The notes beneath the pieces are model-generated. The model saw only the letters and a program-made list of their open reading frames with translations. It was not told where the DNA came from and searched no databases. From assembly GCF_014207705.1 (NCBI RefSeq), contig NZ_JACHIU010000001.1:806001-870000 (forward strand): a DNA stretch of 64,000 nucleotides. Direction: 5' to 3'. This document shows positions 16,747 to 34,707 of this stretch, piece after piece. A program made the position numbers and the translations under genes. The DNA is from Sphaerisporangium rubeum. GTDB taxonomy: Bacteria; Actinomycetota; Actinomycetes; Streptosporangiales; Streptosporangiaceae. How positions within the stretch are numbered: the first letter of the stretch is position 1; every line of letters starts with the position of its first letter.

Positions 16747-17609
16747 CCGTCCGCTTCGGGTACGGCACCAACGGCTTCACCAACCACCGGCTGCCTGAGG
16801 CGCTGGCCGTGCTGGCCGACCTCGGGTACGAAGGCGTCGCGCTGACCCTCGACACCGGACACCTGGACCCGTTCGCGCCGGGCCTCGCCAAGCGCACCGC
16901 CGAGGTGGCGACGCTGCTCGGCCGGCACGGGCTGTCGGTGGTGATCGAGACCGGCGCGCGGTACCTCATGGACCCGTGGCGCAAGCACGCGCCGACGCTG
17001 CTGGACGACGACCCGGCGCGCCGCCTCGAATACCTGCGCCGCGCGGTGCGCGTCGGCGCCGACCTCGGCGCCGAGGCGGTGTCGTTCTGGTCGGGGGTGG
17101 CCCCGCCTGGCGTGCCGGACGTCTGGGAACGGCTGGTGCGCGGGTGCGCCGAGATCGTGGAGACCGCCGAGCTGGCCGGGGTGACGCTCGGGTTCGAACC
17201 GGAACCCGGCATGCTGGTCGCCGACATCGAGGGCTGGCGCCGGCTGCACGCCGCGCTCGGCTGTCCGCCGCATTTCGGCATCACGCTCGACATCGGCCAC
17301 TGCCGCTGCCTGGAGCCGCTGCCGGTCCCCGAGTGCGTCGAGGAGGTCGCGGCCCACCTGGTGAACGTGCAGATCGACGACATGCGCCGCGGGGTGCACG
17401 AGCACCTGGAGTTCGGCACCGGTGAGATCGACTTCCCGCCGGTGCTCGCCGCGCTGAGCGCCGCCAGGTACCGCGGCCTGGTGGCCGTGGAACTGCCACG
17501 CCACGCGCACGACGCGCCGGGGGTGGCGTCCCGTTCCATCGACTTCCTGCGCCAGGCGGCCAAGCAGGCGGCCGGCGCTCACGACGACCGAGACGAGGAC
17601 CGATGGTGA
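16743..17609 (+). CDS. Sugar phosphate isomerase/epimerase-family TIM barrel protein
   Basis: A 288-residue xylose-isomerase-like TIM barrel: FGYGTNGFTNHRLPEALAVLADLGYEGVALTLD, later GFEPEPGMLV (metal Glu), GITLDIGHC (Asp/His ligands), VQIDDM and VAVELPRHAHDA. Predicted divalent-metal isomerase or epimerase acting on a sugar or polyol. Start GTG 16743 overlaps the EboC stop by four bases and is preferred over upstream starts inside that gene. It resembles but does not replace the second barrel protein (EboE) later in the operon, so this operon has two such enzymes. Confidence 0.78.
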   Translation: MTVRFGYGTNGFTNHRLPEALAVLADLGYEGVALTLDTGHLDPFAPGLAKRTAEVATLLGRHGLSVVIETGARYLMDPWRKHAPTLLDDDPARRLEYLRRAVRVGADLGAEAVSFWSGVAPPGVPDVWERLVRGCAEIVETAELAGVTLGFEPEPGMLVADIEGWRRLHAALGCPPHFGITLDIGHCRCLEPLPVPECVEEVAAHLVNVQIDDMRRGVHEHLEFGTGEIDFPPVLAALSAARYRGLVAVELPRHAHDAPGVASRSIDFLRQAAKQAAGAHDDRDEDRW

Positions 17610-18211
17610 CCCTTGACGACCTGCGTGCCGCGCTGGCGGACAACGGCTCGCTCGCCGAGGACGGGTGGCTCGCCGGGGCCCTCGGCGTCGTGGCGGCCGA
17701 CCCGAGCGCGCTCGGCGGCCTGTTCCCCGCGGTCGGCAGACGCTGCGGACGCGGGCCGCTGCCGGGGGTGCCGGGCTGGACGGTCGATGAGGCGGCGCGG
17801 ACCCTGCTGCTCGCCGCGCTGCCGCCGGACGTGCTCGCCGGCGAGGTGGACGACGTCTACCGGTACGGCGACGCCGCCGAGAAGCTCGCCGTGCTGCGCG
17901 CGCTGCCGCTGCTGCCGGTCGGCGACACGGCCGTGTCGCTGCTGCACGACGCGCTGCGCACCAACGACACCAGGCTCGTCACGGCGGCGCTCGGCCCGTA
18001 CGCCACCCGCCTCGACGACGCGGCCTGGCGGCAGGGGATCCTCAAGTGCGTGTTCATGGGGGTGCCGCTGGCCGACGTGCACGGGGTGACCGAGCGCGCG
18101 GACGCGAGTCTCGCCGCGATGCTCGACGCCTTCGCGCGGGAGCGCCGCGCGGCGGGCCGTGAGGTCCCCGCCGACGCGCTCGCCGTTCTGGAACACGCCA
18201 AGGAGAACTGA
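17603..18211 (+). CDS. eboA: EboA-family protein
   Basis: A 202-residue, almost wholly helical soluble protein with the EboA pattern: WTVDEAARTLLLAALP, YRYGDAAEKLAVLRALPLLP, DTAVSLLHDALRTNDTRLVTAALGPYATRLDD, and WRQGILKCVFMGVPLADVHGV. The alpha-helical repeat suggests a scaffold for the EboB and EboC proteins rather than an enzyme; that role is inference. The start overlaps the preceding stop by seven bases and its stop shares a base with the next start. Confidence 0.8.
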   Translation: MVTLDDLRAALADNGSLAEDGWLAGALGVVAADPSALGGLFPAVGRRCGRGPLPGVPGWTVDEAARTLLLAALPPDVLAGEVDDVYRYGDAAEKLAVLRALPLLPVGDTAVSLLHDALRTNDTRLVTAALGPYATRLDDAAWRQGILKCVFMGVPLADVHGVTERADASLAAMLDAFARERRAAGREVPADALAVLEHAKEN

Positions 18212-19062
18212 TGCGAATCTTCGATCCACATATCCACATGACGTCCCGCACCACCGACGACTACGAGAAGATGGCGGCGGCCGGGGTGAAGGCGGTGGTG
18301 GAGCCGGCCTTCTGGCTCGGTCAGCCCCGCACCGGCCCTGGTTCCTTCACCGACTACTTCGACTCGCTGGTCGGCTGGGAACCGTTCCGCGCCGCGCAGT
18401 TCGGGGTGAAACATCACGCCACGATCGCCTTGAACCCCAAGGAGGCGAACGACCCCCGCTGTCGTCCCGTGCTCGACCTGCTGCCGCGCTATCTGGCCAA
18501 GGACGGCGTGGTCGCGGTCGGCGAGGTCGGGTACGACTCGATGACGCCGGAGGAAGACGAGGTCTTCGCCGCGCAGCTCGCGCTCGCCATCGACCACGAC
18601 CTGCCGGCGATGGTGCACACCCCGCACCGCGAGAAGGCGCGCGGTGTCGAGCGCAGCATCGACGTCATCGCCGAGTCCGGCATCGACCCCGGCCGTGTGG
18701 TCCTGGACCACCTCAACGAGGTCACCGTGGCCCGCGCCAAGGACGCCGGCCTGTGGATGGGGTTCTCGATCTACCCCGACACCAAGATGTCGCCGCCGCG
18801 CATGGTGAAGATCATGCGTGAGTACGGCCTGGAGCGGGTGCTGGTCAACTCGGCCGCCGACTGGGGCCGGTCGGACCCGCTGCTGACCCGGACGACCGCC
18901 GACGCGATGCTCGCCGACGGCTACACCGAGGACGACGTGGACCTCGTCCTGTGGCGCAACCCCGTGGAGTTCTACAGCCAGTCGGGACGGCTCGACCTGT
19001 CCGACACCGGCACCGGGGACGCCACGTTCGCCGGCAACTCGATCCTGCGTGGCGGAAGCTGA
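18211..19062 (+). CDS. eboB: TatD-like metal-dependent hydrolase (EboB)
   Basis: A 283-residue amidohydrolase-fold protein of the TatD group. It begins RIFDPHIHM (His-x-His metal site), has VAVGEVGYDS (metal Glu), MVHTPHREK, VVLDHLNE, and NSAADWG (final Asp). Unlike nuclease-type TatD proteins, EboB members are linked to ebo metabolite export. It follows EboA with a one-base stop/start overlap. Cytoplasmic; no signal peptide. The substrate is unknown. Confidence 0.82.
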   Translation: MRIFDPHIHMTSRTTDDYEKMAAAGVKAVVEPAFWLGQPRTGPGSFTDYFDSLVGWEPFRAAQFGVKHHATIALNPKEANDPRCRPVLDLLPRYLAKDGVVAVGEVGYDSMTPEEDEVFAAQLALAIDHDLPAMVHTPHREKARGVERSIDVIAESGIDPGRVVLDHLNEVTVARAKDAGLWMGFSIYPDTKMSPPRMVKIMREYGLERVLVNSAADWGRSDPLLTRTTADAMLADGYTEDDVDLVLWRNPVEFYSQSGRLDLSDTGTGDATFAGNSILRGGS

Positions 19063-20168
19063 TGCACCTGAGTTACTGCACCAACGTGCACCCCGCCGAG
19101 GACCTGGCCGGCATCGTCACGCAGCTCGACACCTACGCCGTCCCCGTGCGGGAACGGCTGGAGTCGGACGTGCTCGGCCTCGGGTTGTGGCTGGCGGCGC
19201 CGGTGGCGGCCGAGCTGGCGGCCGACCAGGACGCGCGCCGCCGCCTGCGGCGCGAGCTGGACGCGCGCGGCCTCGAAGTGGTGACGCTCAACGGTTTCCC
19301 CTACAGCGCCTTCCAGGCCCCCGTCGTCAAGCACGCCGTCTACCACCCCGACTGGACGACGCGGGAACGCCTCACCTACACCCTGGACCTGGCCCGCGTG
19401 CTCGCCGACCTCATGCCGGACGACGCCGCACGCGGCTCGATCTCCACGCTGCCGCTCGCCTGGCGCGAGCCGTGGGACGCCGAGCGCGCGGACGCCGCGT
19501 ACCGCAACCTGGACGAGCTGGCGCGCGGCCTCGCCGGGATCGCCGCGACCACCGGCCGCACGATCCGCGTGGCCTTCGAACCGGAACCCGGCTGCGTCAT
19601 CGAGAACACCACGCAGGCCGCCGGGCTGCTGTCCGGCGTGGACACCGAATGGCTCGGCGTGTGCCTGGACCTCGCGCACCTGGCCTGCGCCTGGGAGGAC
19701 CCGGCCGCCGCGCTCGGCCGGCTGCGCGCCGCCGGGCTCCAGGTGGTCAAGGTGCAGCTCTCGGCGGCCCTGGAGGCGGCCGACCCGGTGGCGGCCCGCG
19801 ACGTGCTCGCGTCGTACGCCGAGCCGCGGTTCCTGCACCAGACCCGGTCGGCCTTCGACGTCGCGGCCGACGACCTGGACGAGGCGCTGGAACGCGGGCT
19901 GCCGGGCCCGTGGCGCGTGCACTACCACGTGCCGCTGCACGCCGAGCCGGTCGCGCCGCTCACCTCGACGGCGCCGGTGCTCCAGGCCGCCGTACGCGAA
20001 CTGCTCGCCGGGCCGGAACCGGCCTGCGACCACTTCGACGTGGAGACCTACACATGGGGTGTGCTCCCCCCGGAGCAACGACCCCAGGATGCCGCCGGTC
20101 TGGCGGCCGGCATCGCGGCCGAGATGGCCTTCGCTCGTTCCCTGCTCGCCACGGAGGTGGCCCGTTGA
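19062..20168 (+). CDS. eboE: EboE-type TIM-barrel protein
   Basis: A 368-residue xylose-isomerase-like barrel with the EboE N-terminus MHLSYCTNVHPAEDLAGIVTQL, followed by VTLNGFPYSAFQ, VKHAVYHPDWTTRERLTYT, VAFEPEPGCVIENT and CLDLAHLAC. These are diagnostic of 'metabolite traffic protein EboE'. Start ATG 19062 shares a base with the preceding TGA. In cyanobacteria the ebo genes are needed to move precursor molecules to the periplasm; the biochemical role of EboE is not established. Confidence 0.85.
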   Translation: MHLSYCTNVHPAEDLAGIVTQLDTYAVPVRERLESDVLGLGLWLAAPVAAELAADQDARRRLRRELDARGLEVVTLNGFPYSAFQAPVVKHAVYHPDWTTRERLTYTLDLARVLADLMPDDAARGSISTLPLAWREPWDAERADAAYRNLDELARGLAGIAATTGRTIRVAFEPEPGCVIENTTQAAGLLSGVDTEWLGVCLDLAHLACAWEDPAAALGRLRAAGLQVVKVQLSAALEAADPVAARDVLASYAEPRFLHQTRSAFDVAADDLDEALERGLPGPWRVHYHVPLHAEPVAPLTSTAPVLQAAVRELLAGPEPACDHFDVETYTWGVLPPEQRPQDAAGLAAGIAAEMAFARSLLATEVAR

Positions 20169-21544
20169 GTCCGTTGGTGGTCCTCGATGTCGTCGGTCTC
20201 ACGCCGCGGCTGCTCGAACACATGCCGAAGCTGCGCAAGGTGGCCGAGCAGGGTTTCCAGGCGCCGCTCGGCACCGTGCTCCCCGCCGTCACGTGCTCGG
20301 TCCAGTCGACGTTCCTGACCGGTGAGACCCCGGCGGGACACGGCATCGTCGGCAACGGGTGGTACTTCCGCGACCTCGGCGAGGTGCTGCTGTGGCGCCA
20401 GCACAACGCGCTCGTCGGCGGCGACAAACTGTGGGACGCGGTGCGCCGCCTCGACCCCGGCTACACCGTGGCCAACATCTGCTGGTGGTACGCCATGGGG
20501 GCCGACGTCGACTGGACGGTCACCCCGAGGCCCATCTACTACGCCGACGGCCGCAAGGAACCGGACTGCTACACCGACCCCCCCGAGCTGCACGACGAGC
20601 TGACCGCCGCGCTCGGCCCGTTCCCCCTGTTCACCTACTGGGGTCCGACGGCCGCCATGCCGTCGTCCCGGTGGATCTGCCGTGCCGCCGAACAGATCAT
20701 GGCGACGCACAACCCGGACCTGACCCTGGTCTACGTCCCCCACCTCGACTACGACCTGCAGCGGTTCGGCCCCTCGCGTTCCGAGGCCGACACCGCGGCG
20801 GCCGAGCTGGACGAGGTGCTCGCGCCGCTGCTGGACGCCGCCGCGGCGCGCGGCGCGACCGTGGTCGTGCTGTCGGAGTACGGCATCACCGACGTCAGCC
20901 GGCCGGTGGGGATCAACCGGGCCCTGCGCGCGGAGGGCCTGCTGAAGGTCTACCGCCAGGACGGCATGGAGTACCTGGACCCCTGGACGTCCCGGGCCTT
21001 CGCCGTCGCCGACCACCAGATCGCGCACGTCTACGTGCGCGACCCCGGGGACATCCCGGCCGTGGCCAAGCTGTGCGCCGCGCTGCCAGGCGTCGCCGAG
21101 GTCCTCGACGAGGAAGGCAAGGCCGCGAACGGCCTGGACCATCCGCGCTCCGGTGAGCTGGTCCTGGTCGCCGACCCCGACGCGTGGTTCACCTACTACT
21201 ACTGGCTGGACGACGCTGCGGCCCCCGACTTCGCGCGACTGGTGGAGATCCACCGCAAGCCCGGCTACGACCCCGCCGAGCTGTTCTTCGACCCCGCCGC
21301 GCCGCTGGCCGCCAAGCGCCGCGCGGCGACCGCGCTGGCCCGCAAGAAGCTCGGCATGCGCTACATGATGAGCGTGGTCGGCCTCGACGCGGGAGCCCAC
21401 GCCGTGCGGGGGTCCCACGGCCGCCTCCCCGCCGACCCCGCCGACGCTCCGGTGCTGCTGTGCTCGGACCCTTCGGCGGCGCGGCCGGAGTTCGCGGCCA
21501 CGGACGTGAAGGACTTCCTGTTGTCCCTCACCGGCCGGTCGTGA
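20165..21544 (+). CDS. eboF: Alkaline phosphatase/phosphodiesterase-superfamily protein (EboF)
   Basis: A 459-residue nucleotide pyrophosphatase/phosphodiesterase-like enzyme. Metal and nucleophile motifs: VVLDVVGLT (Asp), AVTCSVQSTFLTGETPAGHGIVGNGWYF (catalytic Thr in TCS), PHLDYDLQRFGP, VVVLSEYGITDV and DHQIAHVY. No signal peptide, so it acts in the cytoplasm. Start TTG 20165 overlaps the EboE stop by four bases, making it the last gene of the coupled operon. It would hydrolyse a phosphate mono- or diester, perhaps the product of the operon cyclase. Confidence 0.83.
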   Translation: MSPLVVLDVVGLTPRLLEHMPKLRKVAEQGFQAPLGTVLPAVTCSVQSTFLTGETPAGHGIVGNGWYFRDLGEVLLWRQHNALVGGDKLWDAVRRLDPGYTVANICWWYAMGADVDWTVTPRPIYYADGRKEPDCYTDPPELHDELTAALGPFPLFTYWGPTAAMPSSRWICRAAEQIMATHNPDLTLVYVPHLDYDLQRFGPSRSEADTAAAELDEVLAPLLDAAAARGATVVVLSEYGITDVSRPVGINRALRAEGLLKVYRQDGMEYLDPWTSRAFAVADHQIAHVYVRDPGDIPAVAKLCAALPGVAEVLDEEGKAANGLDHPRSGELVLVADPDAWFTYYYWLDDAAAPDFARLVEIHRKPGYDPAELFFDPAAPLAAKRRAATALARKKLGMRYMMSVVGLDAGAHAVRGSHGRLPADPADAPVLLCSDPSAARPEFAATDVKDFLLSLTGRS

Positions 21545-24193: not shown

Positions 24194-25486
24194 GTGGTAC
24201 AACCGGCGATGATTCGCGCTCCATTGACCTTCGGGCAGCTCTCCCTGTGGCGGTCCATCCAGGGACTGTCACCGGAGGCGTGCAACCTTCCACAGACATG
24301 GACCGTTCCCGACGGCGTGAGCCTCGCCTCGGTCGAGGAGGCGCTCGCGGCGCTGGAGGATCGTCACGAGTCACTGCGCACCCGCTACGAGCCCGACGGG
24401 GAGCACGACCTGGTGCAGGCCGTGTGGCCGGCCGCGCCTGTCCGCCTGGACACGGTCGAGGCGGACGGCGACGCGGACCAGGTGGCGCAGGCGGTCACCG
24501 AGCGGGCCGGGGCCGAGGCCTTCGAGCTCGCCAAGGACCGGCCCTGGCGCGCGTGCGCCGTCACCGCGCGGGGAGCCCCGGTCCTGCTGGTCATCTGCTT
24601 CCACCACATCGCCGTCGACGCGTGGGCCATCAACCAGTTGCGGCAGGAGTTCCTGCTGCTGGTGGACGGACTGCGCCTGACCGAACCCGCGCCGAACGGC
24701 CGCGACCTCGCCGCCGAGCAGTGGTCGGCGGCCAGGGAACGGCGGCGCACGGCCGCGCGCAGGTTCTGGACCGGCGTCTTCGAGCAGGCACCCCCGATGG
24801 AGCGGGACCACGGCCTGGACGCGCCGGACGGGCCGCGGCCCCTGTCCACCCGCTGGGCCAGGCTCGGCTCCAAAGAGGCGGCCGACGCCGCCGGCCGGAT
24901 CGCCGGCCGGCTGGAGGTCTCGCTGCCGTCGGTCGCGCTCGCCGCGTTCTGCCTGGCGCTGCACCGCCGCACCGGCCGTGACCGGCTGCTGGTCGCCGTC
25001 TACGCGCACAACCGCAGCGACCCGCGATGGGAGACGCTGGTCGCCGCGCAGAACCAGATCGTCCCGCTGCTGGTCGAGCCACGGGACGGGGAGGACTTCG
25101 GCGAGCTGGTGCGCCGCGTCCACTGGGACTCGGTCCGGTCCTACCGGCACAGCGCGTACAACGTGGACGACGTGCTGGAGGCCGGCCGCGCCTACGGCTA
25201 CCGCGGCTCGGTGAACGGCTCCTTCGCGGGATCGGTCAGCGGCTTCTTCCGCTACTTCTTCAACTACCTCGGCGCTTACCAGGAGGAACACACCTCCGTG
25301 GACGAGGAGATCCGCACCGGCACCGTGGGACGCAACATCGGCGCTCCGCTCTACCTGCAGGTGCAGGCAGGAGAGGCACTGACCTGCACCCTGCGCGAGA
25401 ACTCGACCGGCACCGGTTACGACGAGGTCACCGGGTTGCTCCTGCTCATGCGCGACATCCTGGTCGCCGCCGCGGGCCCGGAGTAG
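24194..25486 (+). CDS. Stand-alone condensation-domain protein
   Basis: A 430-residue protein that is a single NRPS-type condensation domain: TFGQLSLW near the start, then the catalytic HHIAVDAW (about 137-144; HHxxxDx with Ala in place of the usual Gly), and RWARLGSKEA, FCLALHRRTGRDRLLVAVYAHNR. No adenylation or carrier domain. GTG 24194 is chosen because GGTGAGG lies nine bases upstream; ATG 24209 is an alternative. It would join a carrier-bound acyl group to an amine or alcohol, presumably using the ACP-like protein encoded at 29364. First gene of the cluster. Confidence 0.82.
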   Translation: MVQPAMIRAPLTFGQLSLWRSIQGLSPEACNLPQTWTVPDGVSLASVEEALAALEDRHESLRTRYEPDGEHDLVQAVWPAAPVRLDTVEADGDADQVAQAVTERAGAEAFELAKDRPWRACAVTARGAPVLLVICFHHIAVDAWAINQLRQEFLLLVDGLRLTEPAPNGRDLAAEQWSAARERRRTAARRFWTGVFEQAPPMERDHGLDAPDGPRPLSTRWARLGSKEAADAAGRIAGRLEVSLPSVALAAFCLALHRRTGRDRLLVAVYAHNRSDPRWETLVAAQNQIVPLLVEPRDGEDFGELVRRVHWDSVRSYRHSAYNVDDVLEAGRAYGYRGSVNGSFAGSVSGFFRYFFNYLGAYQEEHTSVDEEIRTGTVGRNIGAPLYLQVQAGEALTCTLRENSTGTGYDEVTGLLLLMRDILVAAAGPE

Positions 25487-25551
25487 GCCGCGACCCGCGC
25501 TCACCCCGGCGGCCCTGCCGGATCGTCGCCTGTGAACCATTGGGGGTCCCG

Positions 25552-28023
25552 TTGCCAGGCCACATCATCGTCATCCACCGGTGGACCGACCGTTACGCCG
25601 ACTACGCGTCGTACACCGACCACGGCGCGCGCCGCGTCAGCTACGTGACGACCGCGCGCGCCGCCGGGTCGTTACCGGAGCGGGCCGCGGCGGTGCGGAC
25701 CGTGCCGAGCACCGAGGACGGCAAGGAGGTGCGGGCCGCCGTGGCCTCGCTGATCGAGGAGTGCGGCCGGCCGGACCGGATCGTCGCGCTCCACGAGGTC
25801 GACCTCGACATCGTGGCCGAGTTGCGGGGAGAGCTCGGCGTCCCCGGCGAGACCTCCGAGGAGCTCGCGCCGTTCCGCGACAAGCTGGTCATGGCCCGGC
25901 GGCTCGCCGAGGCCGCGATCCCCGTGCCGGCCACCGAGCCCGCGCCGGACCGCGCGGCGGTGGCCGCGTTCGCCGCGGCCCACGGCTGGCCGGTGCTGGT
26001 GAAACCGGTGCGCGGCACCGCCAGCGCCGGGGTGACCCGCCTCGGCTCACCCGAGGACCTCGACGCGTACGTCTTCCCGCGTGACATGCCGATGCTGGTG
26101 CAGCCGTACCTGCCGCACGACATCCTGCACGTGGACGGCGTGGCCACGGGATCGGGTCTGGGTGCCTGGCAGGTGTCCCGCTACGTCAACACCTGCCTGG
26201 AGTTCACCGAGGGGACGGCGCTCGGCTCGGTCGAGCTGGACGACCCCCGGCTGACCGAGGCCGTCGGCGTGTTCACGGCGCGTGTCGTGCGCGCGTTGTC
26301 CGCCGGTCCGTGGGTGTTCCACCTGGAACTGTTCCTGTCGGGGACGCCTGAGCAACCGGAGCTGCGGGTCCTTGAGGTCGGTGCGCGGCCGGGTGGCGCC
26401 GAGGTCCCGTTCGTGTGGAAGGAAGTGCACGGCGTCGACCTGATGGCCGCCGCGTTCGCGCTCCAGATGGGGGAACCCCTGCCGCGGGAGTGCCTGGCCT
26501 CGGCCGGGACCGAGCGCGGCGGCTGGCTGCTCGTGCCGACCCCGGTGACCCGGCCGTGCCGGGTCGTCGCGGCGGGACGGCGCGGCGACGGCCGGCCCCT
26601 GGACGGCGGGGACGGCGGCCCGTACGCCTCGCGGGTGCCGGTGGTGGGCCGCACGCTGGCCGACCTTCCCGGTTACGAGCACTCCGGCGCGCGGTTCCGG
26701 TTCCGTGGCCGGGACACCGCCGAGGTGGAGGCGGCGATCCGCCGCACGATCGACGAGTTCGACTTCCGCTGCACCCCCATCGACCCGGACGCTCCGGCGC
26801 GGGTCGTCGTGGTCGGCAGCGGCGGCCGGCCGTACCGGGAGTACGCGTTCGCCGACGCGGCGGCCCGCTGCGAGGTGGCGCTGGCCGGCCTCGCCGAACC
26901 CACCTGGCAACTGGCGTACCTGACCGGCCACCGCAGTGTCCCGGACGCCGGCGTGGACGCGCTGACCCGCGCCGTGGGGGAGTGCGTCGCCGGCACGCCG
27001 GGCCGTACCGGCGTCTTCACCTGGGACGAGGTGCTGCTGGAGTCGACCGCCGCCGTCGCGGCGCGGCTCGGGCTGCCGCACATGTCGCCGGCCGCGGCGC
27101 GCAACTGCCGCGACAAGCTGGCGACCCGCCGGCTGCTCGCCGAGGCCGGTCTCCCCGCGGTGCGGTACGCGCACGTGCGGGACGAGGACGAGGCGCTGCG
27201 CGCGGCGGACGCCATCGGCTACCCGGTGGTCGTCAAGCCGCGGTCGCTCGCCGGCAGCGTCGGCGTGGTGATCGCGCAGGACGCCGGCGACCTGCGCCGC
27301 GTCCACCACCACGCGGCCGAGGCGGCCTACCCGGGCCTGGACCCCCTGGACGGCCTGCTGCTCGAGGAGTTCCTGTCCGGGCCGGAGATCAGTGTCGACG
27401 CCGCCGTGCACGACGGCGACGCGCGCCTGGTGAACGTGGCACGCAAACGGCTGGGGTTCGACCCGTTCTTCGAGGAGGTCGGCCACCTCGTCTCGCCGTG
27501 GCGGCACGAGCCGTGGGCCGATGAGCTCACCGACCTGCTGACCGAGGCGCACCGCGCGCTCGGCGTGCGGACCGGCGTCACCCACGCCGAGGTGCGCCTC
27601 ACCCCGGCCGGGCCGCGGCTGGTCGAGCTGAACGGCCGCCTCGGCGGCGACTTCATCCCCCGCCTCGGCAAACTGGCGACCGGCGTCGACCTGACCGCCG
27701 TCGCGGTGGACCTCGCGCTCGGCCTGCGGCCCGAGCTGCGACAGGCGCGCGACGTCTGCGCCGAGGTGCGGTTCCTGTACCCGCCACGGGACTGCGTGGT
27801 CGGTTCGCTGGACGTGTCCGCCGCCACGGCCGTACCCGGCGTGGTGGACGTGGTGCCGCTCGCCGCGCCGGGGACCCGCCTGCTGCTGCCGCCGCGCGGC
27901 GTGGTGCCGCGCCTCGCGGCCGTGATCGTCACCGGGGACACCCCCGATGACTGCCGCCGGACGCTGGACGAGGCGTCGGCGCTGGTGCGTTCGGAGATCG
28001 AGCCGGCAGGGGAGGCCGCGTGA
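25552..28023 (+). CDS. Tandem ATP-grasp ligase (two fused carboxylate-amine ligase units)
   Basis: An 823-residue fusion of two ATP-grasp units. Unit 1 (~1-400): RDKLVMARRLAEAAIPVP, nucleotide-binding PVLVKPVRGTASAGV (~148), metal motif LEVGARPGGAEV (~275). Unit 2 (~415-820): NCRDKLATRRLLAEAGLPAV, PVVVKPRSLAGSVGV (~558), LLLEEFLSGPEISVDA and LVELNGRLGGDFIP (~693). Both keep ATP and Mg residues, unlike fusions where one half is dead. Each unit should form an acyl phosphate and couple it to an amine, so the protein could build a short peptide or pseudopeptide without an NRPS. TTG 25552 follows a GGGGG site; its stop overlaps the MFS start. Confidence 0.8.
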   Translation: MPGHIIVIHRWTDRYADYASYTDHGARRVSYVTTARAAGSLPERAAAVRTVPSTEDGKEVRAAVASLIEECGRPDRIVALHEVDLDIVAELRGELGVPGETSEELAPFRDKLVMARRLAEAAIPVPATEPAPDRAAVAAFAAAHGWPVLVKPVRGTASAGVTRLGSPEDLDAYVFPRDMPMLVQPYLPHDILHVDGVATGSGLGAWQVSRYVNTCLEFTEGTALGSVELDDPRLTEAVGVFTARVVRALSAGPWVFHLELFLSGTPEQPELRVLEVGARPGGAEVPFVWKEVHGVDLMAAAFALQMGEPLPRECLASAGTERGGWLLVPTPVTRPCRVVAAGRRGDGRPLDGGDGGPYASRVPVVGRTLADLPGYEHSGARFRFRGRDTAEVEAAIRRTIDEFDFRCTPIDPDAPARVVVVGSGGRPYREYAFADAAARCEVALAGLAEPTWQLAYLTGHRSVPDAGVDALTRAVGECVAGTPGRTGVFTWDEVLLESTAAVAARLGLPHMSPAAARNCRDKLATRRLLAEAGLPAVRYAHVRDEDEALRAADAIGYPVVVKPRSLAGSVGVVIAQDAGDLRRVHHHAAEAAYPGLDPLDGLLLEEFLSGPEISVDAAVHDGDARLVNVARKRLGFDPFFEEVGHLVSPWRHEPWADELTDLLTEAHRALGVRTGVTHAEVRLTPAGPRLVELNGRLGGDFIPRLGKLATGVDLTAVAVDLALGLRPELRQARDVCAEVRFLYPPRDCVVGSLDVSAATAVPGVVDVVPLAAPGTRLLLPPRGVVPRLAAVIVTGDTPDDCRRTLDEASALVRSEIEPAGEAA

Positions 28024-29300
28024 ACGCCAAGGGGAGCGCGCTGCGGCGCCTGCTGAGCAGTTACGTCCTGCCGGACCGGGACGGCCGCCTCACCGTGGCC
28101 GCCGTCGTGATCTACGCGACCGGCAGCGGCCTGTACCTGGCCGGCGGCACCGTCTTCCTCGTCAAGGGGGTCGGGCTGAGCACGGCCGAGGTCGGCACCG
28201 GCCTCACCGTCGCGGGGCTCGCCGGGTTCCTCACCACCGTGCCGGTGAGCATGCTGGCCAGGCGCTTCGGGCCGCTGCAACTGCTGCGCATGGTCCAGGT
28301 CTGGCGGGCCACGTGGCTCGCGGCATTGGCCTTCGCCGACAACTTCTGGACCTTCACCCTCTTCGCCTCGCTCTTCATGATCTCGCAGGGCCCGGTGCTC
28401 CCCATGGTGCAGCTCGTGGTCGGGGCCATCGCCGGTGACCGTGACCAGACCAAGTCGCTCGGGGTCATCGGCTCGGTGTCCAACGTCGGCATGTGCCTCG
28501 GCGCGCTGGCCGCCGCGCCGTTCCTCAGCCTCGGCGGCATCTGGATGCTCCGCTCGATGCTGCTGCTCGGCGCGTTGTGCTGCCTCGCGTCCGCCGGGCT
28601 GTTCGGCCTGCTCCGCGTCGACGTGACCGCACCCGTGGACCGGCCGGCCCGCTGGCACAGCGGCTTGCTGCCGGTCCTGCGCGACGGACGCTACCTCGCG
28701 TTGACCACCGTGAACGGCGTGCTGTTCCTGCACACCGTGCTGTTCGGCATCGGCCTGCCGCTGTGGCTCGTGCAGTCCACCGACGCGCCTCCCGGCCTGC
28801 TCAGCGCGCTGATCACGGTGAACACGGTGATGGCCATCGCCTTGCAGGTGCACTTCGCCAAACGCGTCAACGACTCACGCGGCGGCACCAGGGCCCTGCG
28901 CGGCGCCGGTGTCACGCTCGCCGCCTCCAGCCTGGTCCTCGTGGCCTCGTCGTACTCGGCGGCCTGGCTCACGATCACCCTGCTTGTCGTCGCCACCATT
29001 CTGCTGACCTGCGGTGAGATGCTCCAGGCGGTCGGCGGCTGGGAACTGTCGTACCGGCACGCGCCGCCGGCGCTGCGCACCGAGTACCTGTCGGTGTTCG
29101 CGCTCGGCGGGGCCGCCGTCGGCATCGCGGGCCCGGCGCTGCTGGCCCTGGTCCTCAGCCTGCGCACCGGCGGCATGGTCGGCCTCGCCGTCCTGTTCCT
29201 GCTCGCCGCGGCCGCCGCCACGGTGGTCGGCGCCAGGCTGCGGCACGCCGAACCGGACCCGGTGCGGCAACCGGAGCCCGGCGAGGCCGCCGCGGTGTAA
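28020..29300 (+). CDS. MFS transporter (probable product exporter)
   Basis: A 426-residue, twelve-segment MFS protein: YATGSGLYLAGGTVFLVKGVGLS, PVSMLARRFGPLQLL, MISQGPVLPMVQLVVGAIAGDRDQ. GTG 28020 overlaps the ATP-grasp stop by four bases, so the two are coupled. An MFS exporter directly after an ATP-grasp ligase is a common arrangement for dipeptide-type antibiotics, where it gives export and self-protection. Product assignment is inferred from position only. Confidence 0.82.
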   Translation: MNAKGSALRRLLSSYVLPDRDGRLTVAAVVIYATGSGLYLAGGTVFLVKGVGLSTAEVGTGLTVAGLAGFLTTVPVSMLARRFGPLQLLRMVQVWRATWLAALAFADNFWTFTLFASLFMISQGPVLPMVQLVVGAIAGDRDQTKSLGVIGSVSNVGMCLGALAAAPFLSLGGIWMLRSMLLLGALCCLASAGLFGLLRVDVTAPVDRPARWHSGLLPVLRDGRYLALTTVNGVLFLHTVLFGIGLPLWLVQSTDAPPGLLSALITVNTVMAIALQVHFAKRVNDSRGGTRALRGAGVTLAASSLVLVASSYSAAWLTITLLVVATILLTCGEMLQAVGGWELSYRHAPPALRTEYLSVFALGGAAVGIAGPALLALVLSLRTGGMVGLAVLFLLAAAAATVVGARLRHAEPDPVRQPEPGEAAAV

Positions 29301-29363
29301 GCGGCGGGCCCGCGCCTGCTCAGGCCGGTCCGAAGTCCAGGCCCACACAGAAAGGCGATTGTC

Positions 29364-29705
29364 ATGCACGACCAACTGCTCGGGTTGATCACCGGCGTCG
29401 TCGAGGAGCTCAACGAACGCAGGACCGAGAAGATCCCGACCGAGAACCTGCTCGGCGTGATGCTGTACGGCGACCAGGGGGTGTTCGACTCCATGCACCT
29501 GGTCAACTTCCTGGCACGGGTGGAGGAGGAACTGGAGGACGAGTACGACGTCGAGATCTCGCTGACCTCGGAGAAGGCCGTCTCCCGCCGGGTGAGCCCG
29601 TTCAGCAGCGTCCGGCGGCTGATCGACTTCATCGACGAGGAGATGCGGCTCGCCGGGGACGAGGCGGACGCGCCGGCCGCCGAGCCGGTGCGGCTCGGCG
29701 GCTGA
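29364..29705 (+). CDS. Acyl-carrier-protein-like protein
   Basis: A 113-residue acidic, helical protein. GVFDSMHLVNFLARVEEELEDEYDVEI has the carrier-protein DS motif followed by the hydrophobic helix, so Ser in FDSM is the expected phosphopantetheine site; the C-terminal helix is SSVRRLIDFIDEEM. It lacks the classic GxDS, having VFDS, and is longer at the N-terminus than housekeeping ACPs. AGAAAGG precedes ATG 29364. Probable carrier loaded by the acyl ligase at 30450 and read by the condensation protein. Confidence 0.75.
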   Translation: MHDQLLGLITGVVEELNERRTEKIPTENLLGVMLYGDQGVFDSMHLVNFLARVEEELEDEYDVEISLTSEKAVSRRVSPFSSVRRLIDFIDEEMRLAGDEADAPAAEPVRLGG

Positions 29706-29753
29706 GCCGATGACCACCAGAGAAGTGGCGGACGGGGCGGGTCGCGGCACTCC

Positions 29754-30449
29754 ATGATCATCATGATCACCGGTACGCGGACCGGTATCGGCAAGGCCCT
29801 GGCCGAGCACTTCCTCGGCCGCGGCCACCAGGTCGTCGGGTGCAGCCGCAGGCCGTCCGCCATCGACCATCCCGGCTACCGCCACCACGAGGTGGACATC
29901 ACCGACAGCGCGGGGATCAAGGCGATGTGCCGGGCCGTACGGCGCGAGCACGGGTACCTCGACGCGGTGGTCAACAACGCCGGCACGGCGACCATGAACC
30001 ACTTCATGATGACCCCCGAGGACGCCGCTCGGCGGATCTTCGACGTCAACTTCTTCGCCGTGCTCAACTGCTGCCGCGAGAGCGTCAAGCTGCTGCAGAA
30101 GAGCAGCGGGTCCCCGGCGATACTCAACGTCTCCACCGTCGCCGTGCCGTGGGCCCTCGCCGGTCAGCTCGTCTACTCGGCCAGCAAGAGCGCCGTCGAA
30201 CAGCTCACGCGGGTGATGAGCAAAGAGGTCGCCGACCTCGGCATCAGGGTCAACGGCATCGGCCTGCCGCCGGTCCACACCGTCCTCACCAGGACCGTGC
30301 CGAAGGAGAAGATCGACGCGCTGGTCGGACGGCAGACGTTCAAACGCATGTGCACCATGGCCGACATCACCGGGCCGGTCGAGTTCCTGATCTCACCGGA
30401 GTCCTCGTTCGTCACCGGGGAGACGCTTTTTCTTGGGGGGGTTCACTGA
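29754..30449 (+). CDS. SDR family NAD(P)-dependent oxidoreductase
   Basis: A 231-residue classical short-chain dehydrogenase: TGTRTGIGKALAEHF (TGxxxGIG), NNAGTA (66-80 region), NVSTVAV, and the catalytic YSASKSAVEQL (YxxxK) with an upstream Ser. The C-terminus VEFLISPESSFVTGETLFLGG is typical. It would reduce or oxidise a keto/hydroxy group on a carrier-bound or free intermediate. Its TGA is directly followed by the ATG of the acyl ligase, so they are coupled. Confidence 0.85.
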   Translation: MIIMITGTRTGIGKALAEHFLGRGHQVVGCSRRPSAIDHPGYRHHEVDITDSAGIKAMCRAVRREHGYLDAVVNNAGTATMNHFMMTPEDAARRIFDVNFFAVLNCCRESVKLLQKSSGSPAILNVSTVAVPWALAGQLVYSASKSAVEQLTRVMSKEVADLGIRVNGIGLPPVHTVLTRTVPKEKIDALVGRQTFKRMCTMADITGPVEFLISPESSFVTGETLFLGGVH

Positions 30450-31808
30450 ATGCGGGACGCGATACTCGCGAGGTTCGACGAGCTCGGCGACCGCGCCGCG
30501 GTCGTCGAGAAGGACACGACGTACAGCTACCGGCAACTGGCGGACGAGACGCGGCGCCTCGGAACGGTCCTGCGCGAGCACGGCGTGGCGCCGCATGACG
30601 TCGTGGTGCTCAACGGCGACTTCTCCTTCACGGCGATCGCCGCGCTGCTGGCGCTGTACATCGACCGCAACGTGCTGGTCCCCGTGGTGACCCTCACCGA
30701 CGCCGTGCTCGCCACCGTCACCAGGGCCTGCGCGCCGCGGTTCGTGCTGCGGACGGCGGCCGGAGCGCGGATCGAGGAGATCCCCGGAATCCCGGCCGCC
30801 GGCGCCTACGACCCACTCGTCGCCGCCGGCACGTCCGGCCTCGTCCTGCTGAGCAGCGGCAGCACCGGCGAACCCAAGGCGATCCTGCACGACCTCGACG
30901 CCATCGTGGCCGAGAAGCTCGGCACACGGACCCGCGCCGCGGGCCGTCCGGCGAACATCCTGATGTTCCTGCTCTTCGACCACATCGGCGGGCTCAACTC
31001 GCTGCTCGGCGTGCTGCGCATGGGGGGCACCGCGATCGTTCCGGAGCGCCGCACGCCGGACGAGATCTGCGCGCTCATCGAGAAGCACCGGATCAGGCTG
31101 CTGCCGACCAGCCCGACGTTCCTCAACCTCATCATGATCGGCGGCTACCACCGCGAGTACGACCTGAGCAGCCTGCGCCTGATCACCTACGGCACCGAGC
31201 CGATGCCGCAGGAACTGCTGACCAGGGTCAACGCGGCGTTCCCCAAGGTCAGGCTGCTGCAGACGTTCGGCACCAGCGAGACCGGCATCTCGACGACCAC
31301 CAGCGAGTCCTCACGCAGCACGTACTTCCGCATCGACGACGCCAACGTCCGGTACCGCGTCGTCGACGGCGAGCTGCAGCTCAAGAGCCGCACCCAGTTC
31401 CTCGGCTACCTCAACTACCCGAGCGACGCGCTCACCGAGGACGGCTGGTTCCGCACCGGCGACCTCGTCGAGCAGAACGCCGACGGCTACATGACCGTCA
31501 AGGGTCGCGCCAAGGAGCTCATCAACGTCGGCGGCGAGAAGGTGCTGCCGCTGGAACTGGAGTCCATCCTGCTCGGCAGCCCTCTCATCGACGACTGCGT
31601 CGTGTACGGCAGGCCGAACGCCATCACCGGCCAGTCGGTGTGCGTGGACGTCAAACCGCGCGGCGAGATGACCAGAGCCGAGGTCCGCAGGCACGTGACC
31701 GAGTTCCTGACCGGCAGGGTCGAGCCGTTCAAGATCCCCACCAAGGTCAACCTGATCGACTCGGTCACCGTCTCCGAGCGGTTCAAGAAGAAGAGGGCAC
31801 TGCCATGA
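30450..31808 (+). CDS. AMP-dependent acyl ligase
   Basis: A 452-residue ANL-superfamily enzyme. P-loop LLSSGSTGEPKAI (~132-144), LITYGTEPMP, TFGTSETG, WFRTGDLVEQNADGYMTVKGRAKELINVGGEKV. The C-terminal subdomain ends at SERFKKKRALP, just past the catalytic-Lys region. Related enzymes adenylate a carboxylic acid and load it on CoA or a carrier; here the adjacent ACP-like protein is the likely acceptor. The stop overlaps the next start by four bases. Confidence 0.84.
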   Translation: MRDAILARFDELGDRAAVVEKDTTYSYRQLADETRRLGTVLREHGVAPHDVVVLNGDFSFTAIAALLALYIDRNVLVPVVTLTDAVLATVTRACAPRFVLRTAAGARIEEIPGIPAAGAYDPLVAAGTSGLVLLSSGSTGEPKAILHDLDAIVAEKLGTRTRAAGRPANILMFLLFDHIGGLNSLLGVLRMGGTAIVPERRTPDEICALIEKHRIRLLPTSPTFLNLIMIGGYHREYDLSSLRLITYGTEPMPQELLTRVNAAFPKVRLLQTFGTSETGISTTTSESSRSTYFRIDDANVRYRVVDGELQLKSRTQFLGYLNYPSDALTEDGWFRTGDLVEQNADGYMTVKGRAKELINVGGEKVLPLELESILLGSPLIDDCVVYGRPNAITGQSVCVDVKPRGEMTRAEVRRHVTEFLTGRVEPFKIPTKVNLIDSVTVSERFKKKRALP

Positions 31809-32437
31809 GCACCGGTCTCGTCGTGATCGGAGCGGGGACGTTCGCGGTCGAGGTGACCCGCTACCTCGACGACCTCGTGGCGGCCGGCCACGACTCCTGC
31901 CGCGTGGCGGGCCACCTCGCGGTGGCGGACGAGCCGGTGCACGTACCGGCCGCCGCGCTGGAGAAGTCCGCACCCGAGCCCGGCACCCGCGTCGTGCTCG
32001 CCGTCGCCGACCCGGTGCGGCGGCGCGAGCTGATCGACGGCCTGATCACCGAGCGCGGACTGGACGCCGTCGACGTCGTCCACCCCGCCGCCAGGGTCGA
32101 TCCGGCCCAGCTCCTCGGCCCCGGCAACATCATCGGCCCCGACAGCTACATCGGCGCGGAAGCGGTGCTCGGCGGCTTCAACGTCGTCCACTACCACTGC
32201 TCCATCGGCCACCACTCGCGGGCCGGCTCCAACAACTTCTTCGCGCCGAACTTCCACTGCGGCGCCGGCGTGCGGATCGGCGACGACAACTTCTTCGGCC
32301 TGAGCTGCACCGTCGCACCTGGGGTGGACACCGGGAGCCGCAACAGGTTCCAGGCCGGCATCACCCTGTTCGAGGACGCGCCGAGCGGCCACTCCTACCT
32401 GGTCCCCAGTCGCATCAAGTCGATCAAGACGTCCTGA
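31805..32437 (+). CDS. NeuD-like left-handed beta-helix acyltransferase
   Basis: A 210-residue protein with an N-terminal Rossmann-like domain (VVIGAGTFAVEVTRYLDDL) and a C-terminal hexapeptide-repeat domain (PGNIIGPDSYIGAEAVLGGFNVVHYHCSIGHHSRAGSNNFFAPNFHCGAGVRIGDDNFFG). This is the layout of NeuD/PglD O- or N-acetyltransferases; the conserved His near HHSRAG is the catalytic base. In this setting it may transfer an acyl group to the product or an amino-sugar-like building block. ATG 31805 overlaps the ligase stop. Confidence 0.8.
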   Translation: MSTGLVVIGAGTFAVEVTRYLDDLVAAGHDSCRVAGHLAVADEPVHVPAAALEKSAPEPGTRVVLAVADPVRRRELIDGLITERGLDAVDVVHPAARVDPAQLLGPGNIIGPDSYIGAEAVLGGFNVVHYHCSIGHHSRAGSNNFFAPNFHCGAGVRIGDDNFFGLSCTVAPGVDTGSRNRFQAGITLFEDAPSGHSYLVPSRIKSIKTS

Positions 32438-32451
32438 GGAAGGTCCAACTG

Positions 32452-34167
32452 ATGAAGCGAGCCAAGGTCACCGTGATCGGCGCGGGACCCGCGGGCTGTG
32501 TGGCGGCACTGACGCTCCACAAGCTCGGCCACGAGGTCGAGGTGTACGAGAAGGGCCACTTCCCCCGGTACCGGATCGGCGAGTCGTTCCTGCCGGGAAC
32601 GCTGTCGATCCTCAACCGGCTGGGACTCCAGGAGAAGATCGACGCCGCGGGTTTCGTGAAGAAGCCGTCGGCGACGTTCCTGTGGGGCCAGGACCAGGCC
32701 CCCTGGACGTTCTCGTTCTCCACCCCGAAGACCGCCTCATGGGTCTTCGACCACGCCATTCAAGTCAAGCGCGAGGAGTTCGACGCGCTCCTGCTGGACG
32801 AGGTACGCGAACGCGGCATCCCCGTCTTCGAAGGCACCGCCGTGACCGAGGTGGACGTGTCGGCCCGCGACCACGTCTCACTCGTCGTACGGCAGGGTGA
32901 CGTCTCCCGCGCGGTCGAGAGCGACTTCGTCATCGACGCCGGCGGCGCCGGCAGCCCGCTGGCGCGGCAGCTCAAGGTGCGCCGCTACGACGAGTTCTAC
33001 AAGAACTTCGCGGTGTGGTCCTACTTCAGGTGCGAGGAGCCGTTCGAGGGCGACCTCAAGGGGACCACGTTCTCGATCACCTTCGAGGACGGCTGGGTCT
33101 GGATGATCCCCCTCAAAGGCGACATCTACAGCGTCGGCCTGGTGGTCGACCGCTCCAAGGCGAGCGAGGTCAAGGAACTCGGCCCCGAGCGCTTCTACCG
33201 CGAGAACCTCGCCAAGGCCGTCCGCGCCACCGCCATACTCGGGGACGCGGAGATGATCGACGAGGTGCGCATCGTCCACGACTGGTCCTACGACTCCGAG
33301 TGGTTCTCGGCCGGCCCGTACTTCCTGTGCGGCGACGCGGCGTGCTTCACCGACCCGCTGTTCTCTCAAGGCGTGCACCTCGCCACGCAGTCCGCGGTGT
33401 CCGCCGCGTCCGCGATCGACCGGATCGCTCGGCACGAGGACGAACGCGACGCCGTGCACGCGTGGTACAACCGCAGCTACCGCGAGACCTACGAGCAGTA
33501 CCACGAGTTCCTCGCCTCGTTCTACACCTTCGCCTCCTTCACCGAGCCGGAGTCGGAGTTCTGGCTCAGGCGCAGGATCAGCGAGTCCGACGACGCCAGG
33601 CTGACCCGCCGCCGGTGGTTCGACCGGCTGGTCCAGGACGACCCGGAGAACCCGTCCGCGTCGGTCGCCGACTTCCGGGACCGCGCCTCGACGATGATCG
33701 CCATCGGCAGGCACCAGCGTAAGGAACTGAGCGACGAGTTCTCGGAGAAGGAGCTCACCTTCGCGCGGGTCCGCTGGATCAGCGACCTCACCAAGCAGCT
33801 CAACCGCATCACCCGGCTCAAGTGGACCGGTCACGAGGTGCGCCTCGACCCGTACTACAAGGTCGAGCCACTGAGCTTCCGCCTGGAACGCAAGCACGTG
33901 CTGGCCAACGAGGACGGCCTCGACATGATCAAGTTCCCGGTGGAGGAGGAGCACCGGGAGATCTTCCAGGCCATCTCCAAGGAGGCCGTCGGCTACAAGA
34001 CGCTGATCAAACAGCTCAACGACGCCGGTCTGCAGGAGGTCGGCTCGCAGATCGTCATCCGCCTGATGGAGGCCGGCCTGCTCAGCGGCTACGACAAGCA
34101 CGACAGACGCGTCCACATCCAGGACCGGCTCCGTTTCGACGGCGTCGGCGTCGAGTACGAGGTCTGA
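32452..34167 (+). CDS. Flavin-dependent halogenase-family enzyme
   Basis: A 571-residue FAD enzyme. GAGPAG (10-15) binds FAD, GESFLPGTL follows, then Lys70/Lys71 in FVKKPSATFLWG at the place of the halogenase active-site Lys, GWVWMIP (214-220) matching the WxWxIP halogenase motif, and GDAACFTDPLFSQGVHLATQ near 290-310. These support a FADH2-dependent halogenase or close monooxygenase. About 150 residues beyond the usual fold contain FRLERKHVLAN, then YKTLIKQLNDAGL...IRLMEAGLLSG, a winged-helix-like tail. Substrate may be free or carrier-bound. No flavin reductase is in the cluster. Confidence 0.78.
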   Translation: MKRAKVTVIGAGPAGCVAALTLHKLGHEVEVYEKGHFPRYRIGESFLPGTLSILNRLGLQEKIDAAGFVKKPSATFLWGQDQAPWTFSFSTPKTASWVFDHAIQVKREEFDALLLDEVRERGIPVFEGTAVTEVDVSARDHVSLVVRQGDVSRAVESDFVIDAGGAGSPLARQLKVRRYDEFYKNFAVWSYFRCEEPFEGDLKGTTFSITFEDGWVWMIPLKGDIYSVGLVVDRSKASEVKELGPERFYRENLAKAVRATAILGDAEMIDEVRIVHDWSYDSEWFSAGPYFLCGDAACFTDPLFSQGVHLATQSAVSAASAIDRIARHEDERDAVHAWYNRSYRETYEQYHEFLASFYTFASFTEPESEFWLRRRISESDDARLTRRRWFDRLVQDDPENPSASVADFRDRASTMIAIGRHQRKELSDEFSEKELTFARVRWISDLTKQLNRITRLKWTGHEVRLDPYYKVEPLSFRLERKHVLANEDGLDMIKFPVEEEHREIFQAISKEAVGYKTLIKQLNDAGLQEVGSQIVIRLMEAGLLSGYDKHDRRVHIQDRLRFDGVGVEYEV

Positions 34168-34170
34168 CCC

Positions 34171-34707
34171 ATGTCCCCGACCTTGGTGTTCCTCGCCGGC
34201 ATCGACAACTCCGGCCCCGGCCACTGGCAGGCCGTCTGGCACTCCCGCGTCCCCGGCTCGGTCTGGGTGGAGCACGGCTCCTGGGACGCGCCGGTGCGTG
34301 ACGTGTGGGTGCGCGAACTCGACGAGGCCCTGCGTGCCGTCCAGGGCCCGAAGTTCCTCGTCGCGCACAGCCTCGGCTGCACGCTGGTCACCGAATGGGC
34401 CGCGCGGCACAAGGACGACGACGTCACCGGCGCGTTCCTGGTCGCCGTACCGGACGTCCACGGTCCGAACTTCCCCCCGCAGGCCGTGGGGTTCGGCACC
34501 CCAGAACCCCGGCGTCTCCCCTTCGCGTCGGTCGTGGTCGCCAGCGAGGACGACCCCTACGGCTCCCTGCCGTACGCCACCGAGACCGCCGCGATCCTCG
34601 GCGCCACCTTGGTGAACGTCGGCCCCAGGGGTCACATCAACGCCGCCTCGGGCCTCGGTGACTGGTCCGAGGGCTGGGACCTGCTCACCGGCGCCTTACC
34701 CCGCTGA
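34171..34707 (+). CDS. RBBP9/YdeN-type serine hydrolase
   Basis: A 178-residue small alpha/beta hydrolase with the RBBP9-like pattern FLAGIDNSGPGHWQAVW, nucleophile AHSLGC (Ser near 66), SEDDPYGS (acid) and GHINAASGLGDW (His). It starts three bases after the halogenase-family gene, so it belongs to the cluster. Possible roles are release of the carrier-bound product, removal of a masking acyl group, or editing; I cannot choose among them. Confidence 0.82.
   Translation: MSPTLVFLAGIDNSGPGHWQAVWHSRVPGSVWVEHGSWDAPVRDVWVRELDEALRAVQGPKFLVAHSLGCTLVTEWAARHKDDDVTGAFLVAVPDVHGPNFPPQAVGFGTPEPRRLPFASVVVASEDDPYGSLPYATETAAILGATLVNVGPRGHINAASGLGDWSEGWDLLTGALPR

Follow-up and report, generated by a model that had tools for sequence, protein, structure and literature searches.

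The window analysed here, a stretch of 64,000 nucleotides from Sphaerisporangium rubeum, carries a condensation domain, an ATP-grasp ligase and a halogenase within a single group of nine genes at positions 24194-34707, and the locus raises the question of what such a combination could make. The earlier note on this DNA had proposed a small acylated, possibly halogenated peptide-like product and had recognised no described pathway in the gene set. Both proposals are examined below, first through the halogenase and its neighbours and then through the two enzymes that set this cluster apart.

Layout and gene content of the cluster

Nine open reading frames, all on the plus strand, lie at 24194-34707 at the positions given in the earlier note, and the compact one-strand cluster described there is real. 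The host genome is a single contig of 7.5 Mb. Third-position GC is 0.93-0.96 in the nine frames, which have a strong coding composition, and seven of the nine proteins exceed the curated cut-off of a Pfam or NCBIfam family. As the earlier note had observed, the cluster contains no NRPS or PKS module. Its genes are as follows:

24194..25486, plus strand: stand-alone condensation (C) domain, 430 aa; Pfam Condensation, E 1.3e-35; GTG start at 24194 or ATG start at 24209
25552..28023, plus strand: tandem ATP-grasp ligase with two homologous halves; ATP-grasp_4 and LAL_C2; probable TTG start at 25552
28020..29300, plus strand: MFS transporter, probable exporter; MFS_1, E 6.1e-19
29364..29705, plus strand: CmlM-type acyl carrier protein, 113 aa, with invariant Ser43; orthologs and model alignment
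29754..30449, plus strand: CmlJ-type short-chain dehydrogenase (SDR); adh_short_C2, E 7.9e-41; TGxxxGIG and YxxxK motifs
30450..31808, plus strand: CmlK-type AMP-forming acyl ligase; AMP-binding, E 3.8e-40
31805..32437, plus strand: NeuD-like left-handed beta-helix acyltransferase; TIGR03570, E 3e-25, below cut-off
32452..34167, plus strand: CmlS flavin-dependent halogenase, 571 aa, Asp277 conserved; NF033113, 1079.6 bits
34171..34707, plus strand: small alpha/beta serine hydrolase; Ser_hydrolase PF06821, E 9.2e-48

With the starts first assigned, intergenic gaps range from -4 to 63 bases, in keeping with genes described as mostly overlapping or closely spaced. The first junction calls for a correction. 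The ATP-grasp frame is open from 25483 and beyond, and the protein starts in four orthologs at what is here residue 24 (frame counted from 25483), a site that the gene caller also picks. The gene thus probably starts at TTG 25552, which would place it 65 bases after the C gene, with the pair not overlapping.

The chloramphenicol-type block and its occurrence in other genomes

The assignment of the eighth protein to the flavin halogenase family was correct in kind but too general, since the protein matches the CmlS equivalog NF033113 at 1079.6 bits against a cut-off of 900. Solved CmlS (3i3l) scored 942.8 bits over halogenase residues 1-571, the whole length of the protein. Asp277, which we take to be the residue covalently bound to FAD in CmlS, is kept in the window halogenase, where HDWSYD at 276-281 aligns with QDWSYD of CmlS. 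The portion of a review available to us describes the CmlS flavin as covalently attached and malonyl-CoA as the substrate proposed for the enzyme (PMC8407142).

In chloramphenicol clusters, cmlM (carrier), cmlJ (SDR), cmlK (ligase) and cmlS (halogenase) are consecutive genes; they were assigned to dichloroacetylation partly by elimination, and their roles were called obscure in 2014 (PMC4249514, in the part available to us). The window shows the order cmlM-J-K-S with the NeuD-like gene inserted ahead of cmlS. Judged by sequence, the four window genes are orthologs of this block and form a chloramphenicol-type dichloroacylation cassette. Since the four genes are orthologous to cmlM-J-K-S, and since the NeuD-like and hydrolase genes travel with the block elsewhere, the acyl group is probably dichloroacetyl or a near relative. 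By the same analogy, chlorination probably acts on the acyl group and not on the peptide.

The CmlJ-type protein has the SDR motifs TGxxxGIG and YxxxK, and the carrier and acyl ligase recognised in the earlier note are borne out by the AMP-binding match of the ligase and by a carrier model that lies closest to acyl carrier proteins. The carrier itself matches no Pfam or NCBIfam family, but its Ser43 is invariant in 19 aligned rows (the window together with 18 of the 24 locus rows that had gene calls). Its AF2 model (pLDDT 76) predicts the helical fold of an ACP, with Ser opening helix 2. In VIA-align, acyl carrier proteins ranked first, with Z to 9.8 at about 2 A over about 80 residues, although for helical bundles a Z below about 13 may arise by chance. 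Neither Foldseek with the model, at E 0.001, nor a profile search with the carrier against PDB sequences returned a match. The NeuD-like protein scored 89 bits with TIGR03570, under the cut-off of 160.8; its PDB match is the perosamine N-acetyltransferase 4ea7 (E 3.1e-11), and one His of its GHH aligns with a His of 4ea7.

Related CmlS loci were collected by scanning one genome per bacterial or archaeal species with the halogenase as single query, a search that finds close relatives only. It returned 28 loci in 26 strains. For three of them (L031, L038 and L040), tblastn and inspection of open reading frames took the place of GC-rich-model gene calls, which were of low quality there. Carrier, SDR and ligase accompanied CmlS in all 28 (tblastn), with identities of 53-92% for the SDR and 50-85% for the ligase. 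This constancy bears on a reading of the cluster as the source of an ordinary acylated small peptide whose peptide part is chlorinated by an unrelated route. An acyl ligase, a carrier and a C domain are also used in lipo-initiation, as that reading would have it, but the ligase, carrier and SDR here have as orthologs the genes that stand beside CmlS in every locus, and we regard this reading as improbable.

Four of the 28 loci, all from other genomes, carry this nine-gene set with its order unchanged: Rhizohabitans arisaemae, Microbispora oryzae, Actinocrinis puniceicyclus and Kitasatospora sp. SolWspMP-SS2h. Protein identities between the window and these four loci are 57-92% in the best segments; MFS orthologs are present in all four (62-87%), and C domain orthologs were found in four of the 28 CmlS loci (59-81%). 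The nine genes, which the earlier note had left to be sought elsewhere, thus do occur together in other genomes, and on this comparison they form one conserved unit rather than a chance association. Among the window genes outside 24194-34707, two (47599-49085) gave weak matches of 29-38% in two of the four loci, and all the others gave no match in the four loci at E 1e-4. Because only these two distant genes match, and weakly, the boundaries of the set are sharp. Wider boundaries were rejected, as the flanking genes are not conserved in the other nine-gene loci. Upstream, at 14748-21544, the window carries in a row inositol-phosphate synthase-like, UbiA, two TIM-barrel, TatD-like and phosphodiesterase genes, an arrangement that presumably resembles an Ebo-type operon.

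The five nine-gene halogenases fall in one starred set of six rows in the CmlS tree, together with a long-branched Rathayibacter protein. CmlS was above cut-off in three of 341 Streptosporangiaceae genomes, the window's own included (the proteins of the other two fit those of Rhizohabitans arisaemae and Microbispora oryzae), and in none of 10 other genomes of the genus; the C domain was found at E 1e-80 or better in four of 345 genomes of the order, again counting its own; and among 394 genomes sampled evenly from the class, a whole-length tandem ATP-grasp protein at E 1e-110 was found only in its own genome, three others matching one half. A search of a plasmid collection gave one match (43.5%), which covered just the second half of the ATP-grasp protein. 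A plasmid origin of the nine-gene set was rejected, the lone match being to half of one protein.

With cmlM-J-K-S homologues present, the locus might be taken for a chloramphenicol cluster or its remnant. The remaining names, CmlP, CmlA, CmlH and CmlI, were assigned from gene order in Micromonospora sp. ATCC 39149 (L039) and, for CmlP, from its A and reductase-like domains; that gene order matches the one in S. venezuelae (PMC4249514, in the part available to us). All four are absent from the window and from the four other nine-gene loci. In the host genome, the sole CmlA match was partial (38%, E 8.6e-9) and lay at another site on the chromosome, and a search for CmlH and CmlI, run there without a positive control, found nothing. 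A chloramphenicol cluster was rejected on these missing core genes and is, in our judgement, extremely improbable.

The last gene of the cluster suggests another alternative. A hydrolase lies next to CmlS in nine of the 28 loci, namely the four nine-gene loci and five in which the cassette stands beside a FeeM-like GNAT; one of the latter (L018) ends before the FeeM gene. This proximity would suit cryptic chlorination, in which the chlorinated acyl group serves as an activated intermediate, is converted by the hydrolase or by some other enzyme, and leaves no chlorine in the exported product. Cryptic halogenation is reported for another pathway in the available part of the largimycin paper. However, chloramphenicol retains its dichloroacetyl group and its four cassette genes do not otherwise differ from those here, and we consider it unlikely that the chlorine is lost.

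Condensation domain, ATP-grasp ligase and exchanged putative N-acyltransferases

The stand-alone C domain of the earlier note was confirmed: the protein matches PF00668 at 123.4 bits against a gathering score of 30.6, and its HHxxxD motif, HHIAVD at residue 137, is invariant in five rows. Its best solved relative is 4znm, annotated as 'C-domain type II peptide synthetase', which is likewise stand-alone (E 1e-15) and which we take to be SgcC5 of the C-1027 pathway.

Equally sound was the description of a tandem ATP-grasp ligase. The C-terminal half matches ATP-grasp_4 (E 6.2e-24) and LAL_C2 (E 3.4e-11), with the L-amino acid ligase BL00235 (3vot) as best PDB match. Taken alone, the N-terminal half matches no Pfam family, yet it is homologous to the C-terminal half (hhalign probability 99.4, E 2e-21). 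The motifs EVGARPGG at 298 and ELNGRLGG at 715 (frame from 25483) mark the two halves and are kept in orthologs, and E298, G300 and R302 of the first half are invariant in eight rows. Because EVGARPGG resembles the EVGARIGG of BL00235 in the alignment of BL00235 with the C-terminal half, both halves may be active.

Members of the ligase's family appear beside the cassette a second time. Four loci (L026, L028, L035 and L041) combine the cassette with CmlH and a single ATP-grasp protein that is 40-42% identical to the C-terminal half, which by homology is a second pairing of the cassette with the family of the tandem ligase. Relatives of single ATP-grasp halves also lie in other pathways and gave no pointer to the product of the window cluster; one (L049) adjoins a carbamoyltransferase and a TauD-type oxygenase, and another (L050) adjoins aminotransferases and a tryptophan dioxygenase-like gene.

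When the 28 loci were compared for putative N-acyltransferases, exactly one was found in 24 loci and two were found in none, counts that describe a pattern among related loci rather than independent trials. The transferase is a C domain in four loci, a FeeM-like GNAT in five, an EctA-like GNAT in four and CmlH in 11; the family names FeeM-like and EctA-like were taken from single members. None of the four types was found in L018, L031, L038 or L040, absence being judged within at most 10 kb to either side of CmlS; the L018 stretch stops right behind the hydrolase, and an NRPS that includes a C domain is present in L031. NeuD is present in 15 of the 28 loci (the four nine-gene, five FeeM-type and four EctA-type loci, plus L036 and L038), and there is no overlap with the 11 that carry CmlH. 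CmlJ is kept in all 15 NeuD loci and in the window, and no CmlP was seen there in the stretches examined, which argues that CmlJ serves the predicted dichloroacyl branch.

CmlH matches no Pfam family, and a profile search of PDB sequences with it returned nothing. An AF2 model of the Micromonospora protein (pLDDT 56) gave 190 Foldseek matches in the PDB at E 0.001 or better, at TM-scores of 0.26-0.37 and rmsd over 12 A; among the best 50 of these 190, NRPS condensation, epimerization and X domains lead. VIA-align gave Z to 10.3 with C/E/X-type domains at about 11 A rmsd, and superposed the second half of CmlH on E2 acyltransferase cores at 3.3-4.4 A. Two CmlH residues, H137 and D141, do not vary in an alignment of 10 of the 11 loci (L026, cut by the locus edge, was left out). 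They fall opposite the HHxxxD region of the window C domain, in an alignment to which hhalign assigns a probability of only 0.8%. We regard a C-domain fold for CmlH as likely but unproven.

Other genes stand beside the cassette in several loci. In L021, L023, L024 and L025 the CmlS cassette stands beside an EctA-like diaminobutyrate acetyltransferase (in L025, TIGR02406 at 121.2 bits against a cut-off of 120.6), hinting at dichloroacylated diaminobutyrate or a chlorinated relative of ectoine. In Rathayibacter tanaceti (L036, 3389-5418), SbnA- and SbnB-type 2,3-diaminopropionate genes, both above NCBIfam cut-offs, lie near the cassette, suggesting diaminopropionate as acceptor. The Pseudomonas piscis cassette (L040, 6995-13106) adjoins a methyltransferase and two MaoC-like dehydratases. 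A FeeM-type cassette with NeuD and hydrolase is carried at 8057-15680 of L051, from pT136b, a plasmid of the root-nodule Rhizobium sp. T136 typed as conjugative; identities are 51% (carrier), 55% (SDR), 53% (ligase), 38% (NeuD), 64% (CmlS), 51% (hydrolase) and 39% (GNAT). CmlS is present on two further Rhizobium plasmids.

These exchanges could be explained if cmlM-J-K-S, usually with NeuD outside chloramphenicol loci, were a portable dichloroacylation cassette plugged into a C domain with tandem ATP-grasp ligase, a FeeM-like or EctA-like transferase, or CmlH as a disguised C domain, across Actinomycetota, a Pseudomonas and Rhizobium plasmids typed as conjugative. Dichloroacylated products would then be an overlooked class, with the window as its ATP-grasp peptide branch. 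We see the case for this broader picture as evenly balanced.

One genome of the same family (G334, 92% complete) bears on the choice of transferase in the window. It carries the C domain (62-63%) and the tandem ATP-grasp ligase (68-70%) with motifs kept, together with a further single L-amino acid ligase alongside (L057, 9338-14869). Its best CmlS match reaches 33%, and a search for a CmlM-type carrier, which had no positive control there, found none. The C domain and ligase can thus occur apart from the cassette, and the C domain may draw on a different donor. The dichloroacyl group could accordingly be placed by the NeuD-like protein, with the C domain and tandem ligase as a self-contained peptide-building pair joined to the cassette, and the distribution of NeuD fits such a role, since it is present in nine-gene, FeeM-type and EctA-type loci and also in L036 and L038, but never in the 11 CmlH loci. 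On the other hand, NeuD occurs with three different putative amine acyltransferases, which makes a shared step before transfer more likely. C domains should in general require a donor bound to a carrier, and the sole carrier of the window cluster is CmlM-like. We find transfer by NeuD doubtful, though the strongest of the alternatives. Because G334 separates the pair from the cassette, we have moderate confidence that the C domain is the dichloroacyl transferase, and we retain the NeuD-like protein as an alternative.

Proposed pathway and closest known systems

The gene identities, the synteny, the conserved catalytic motifs and the conservation of the cassette are direct observations. From them we infer the substrates, the step order, the product and what the NeuD-like protein, the SDR and the hydrolase do, as follows. 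The CmlK-like ligase would load the acyl group onto the CmlM-like carrier, the CmlJ-like SDR would set its oxidation state and CmlS would dichlorinate it; any carbon-carbon trimming, editing or release would fall to the NeuD-like transferase, the serine hydrolase or both. The tandem ATP-grasp ligase would use ATP, but no carrier, to couple two or three free amino acids; the C domain would shift the dichloroacyl group from carrier to amine, and the MFS protein would export the product. Our preferred reading, which we hold with somewhat better than even confidence, is therefore that the cluster may make and export a small peptide bearing an N-dichloroacyl cap placed by the C domain; the cap is most likely dichloroacetyl, a group carried over by analogy from chloramphenicol. 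The product is probably an undescribed small peptide with a chlorinated cap. The acylated, possibly halogenated peptide of the earlier note is partly supported in this way, but the dichloroacylation origin of the acyl group had been missed.

The view that the gene set matches no described pathway needs a similar amendment. No dichloroacetyl-peptide pathway, and none that joins ATP-grasp to a CmlS cassette, was found in the literature searched, which included few subscription papers, and the part of PMC13055916 available to us does not treat the nine-gene cluster. Yet four of the genes are cmlM-J-K-S orthologs, and one half of the set is that branch of a classic antibiotic pathway which is least well understood. 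What is new here is that the known dichloroacylation branch appears to be wired to a different, presumably carrier-free peptide assembly. The comparison isolates a minimal gene set for the dichloroacetyl branch of chloramphenicol, proposes a fold for CmlH, the predicted transferase, and makes several different clusters available for testing the branch. It also points to unexplored chlorinated small peptides in Streptosporangiaceae and other actinomycetes.

Among known systems, the chloramphenicol clusters of Streptomyces venezuelae and Micromonospora sp. ATCC 39149 have cmlM, J, K and S in the same relative order as the window, and the window CmlS is 68-71% identical to those of seven cml-type loci. 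Unlike them, the window is without CmlA, CmlP, CmlH and CmlI and adds the NeuD-like protein, the hydrolase, the C domain and the tandem ATP-grasp ligase. The C-terminal half of that ligase aligns with the ATP-grasp dipeptide ligases BL00235 and BacD and shares their ATP-grasp and LAL_C2 domains, but the window enzyme has two ATP-grasp halves per chain, the first too divergent for Pfam. The C domain is free-standing like 4znm, its best but weak solved-structure match; in contrast to 4znm, its partner would be a CmlM-type ACP. Finally, the FeeM-type CmlS loci, including Rhizobium sp. T136 pT136b, share six genes with the window (carrier, SDR, ligase, NeuD, CmlS and serine hydrolase), whereas the C domain and tandem ATP-grasp ligase are absent there and a GNAT resembling N-acyl amino acid synthases is present.
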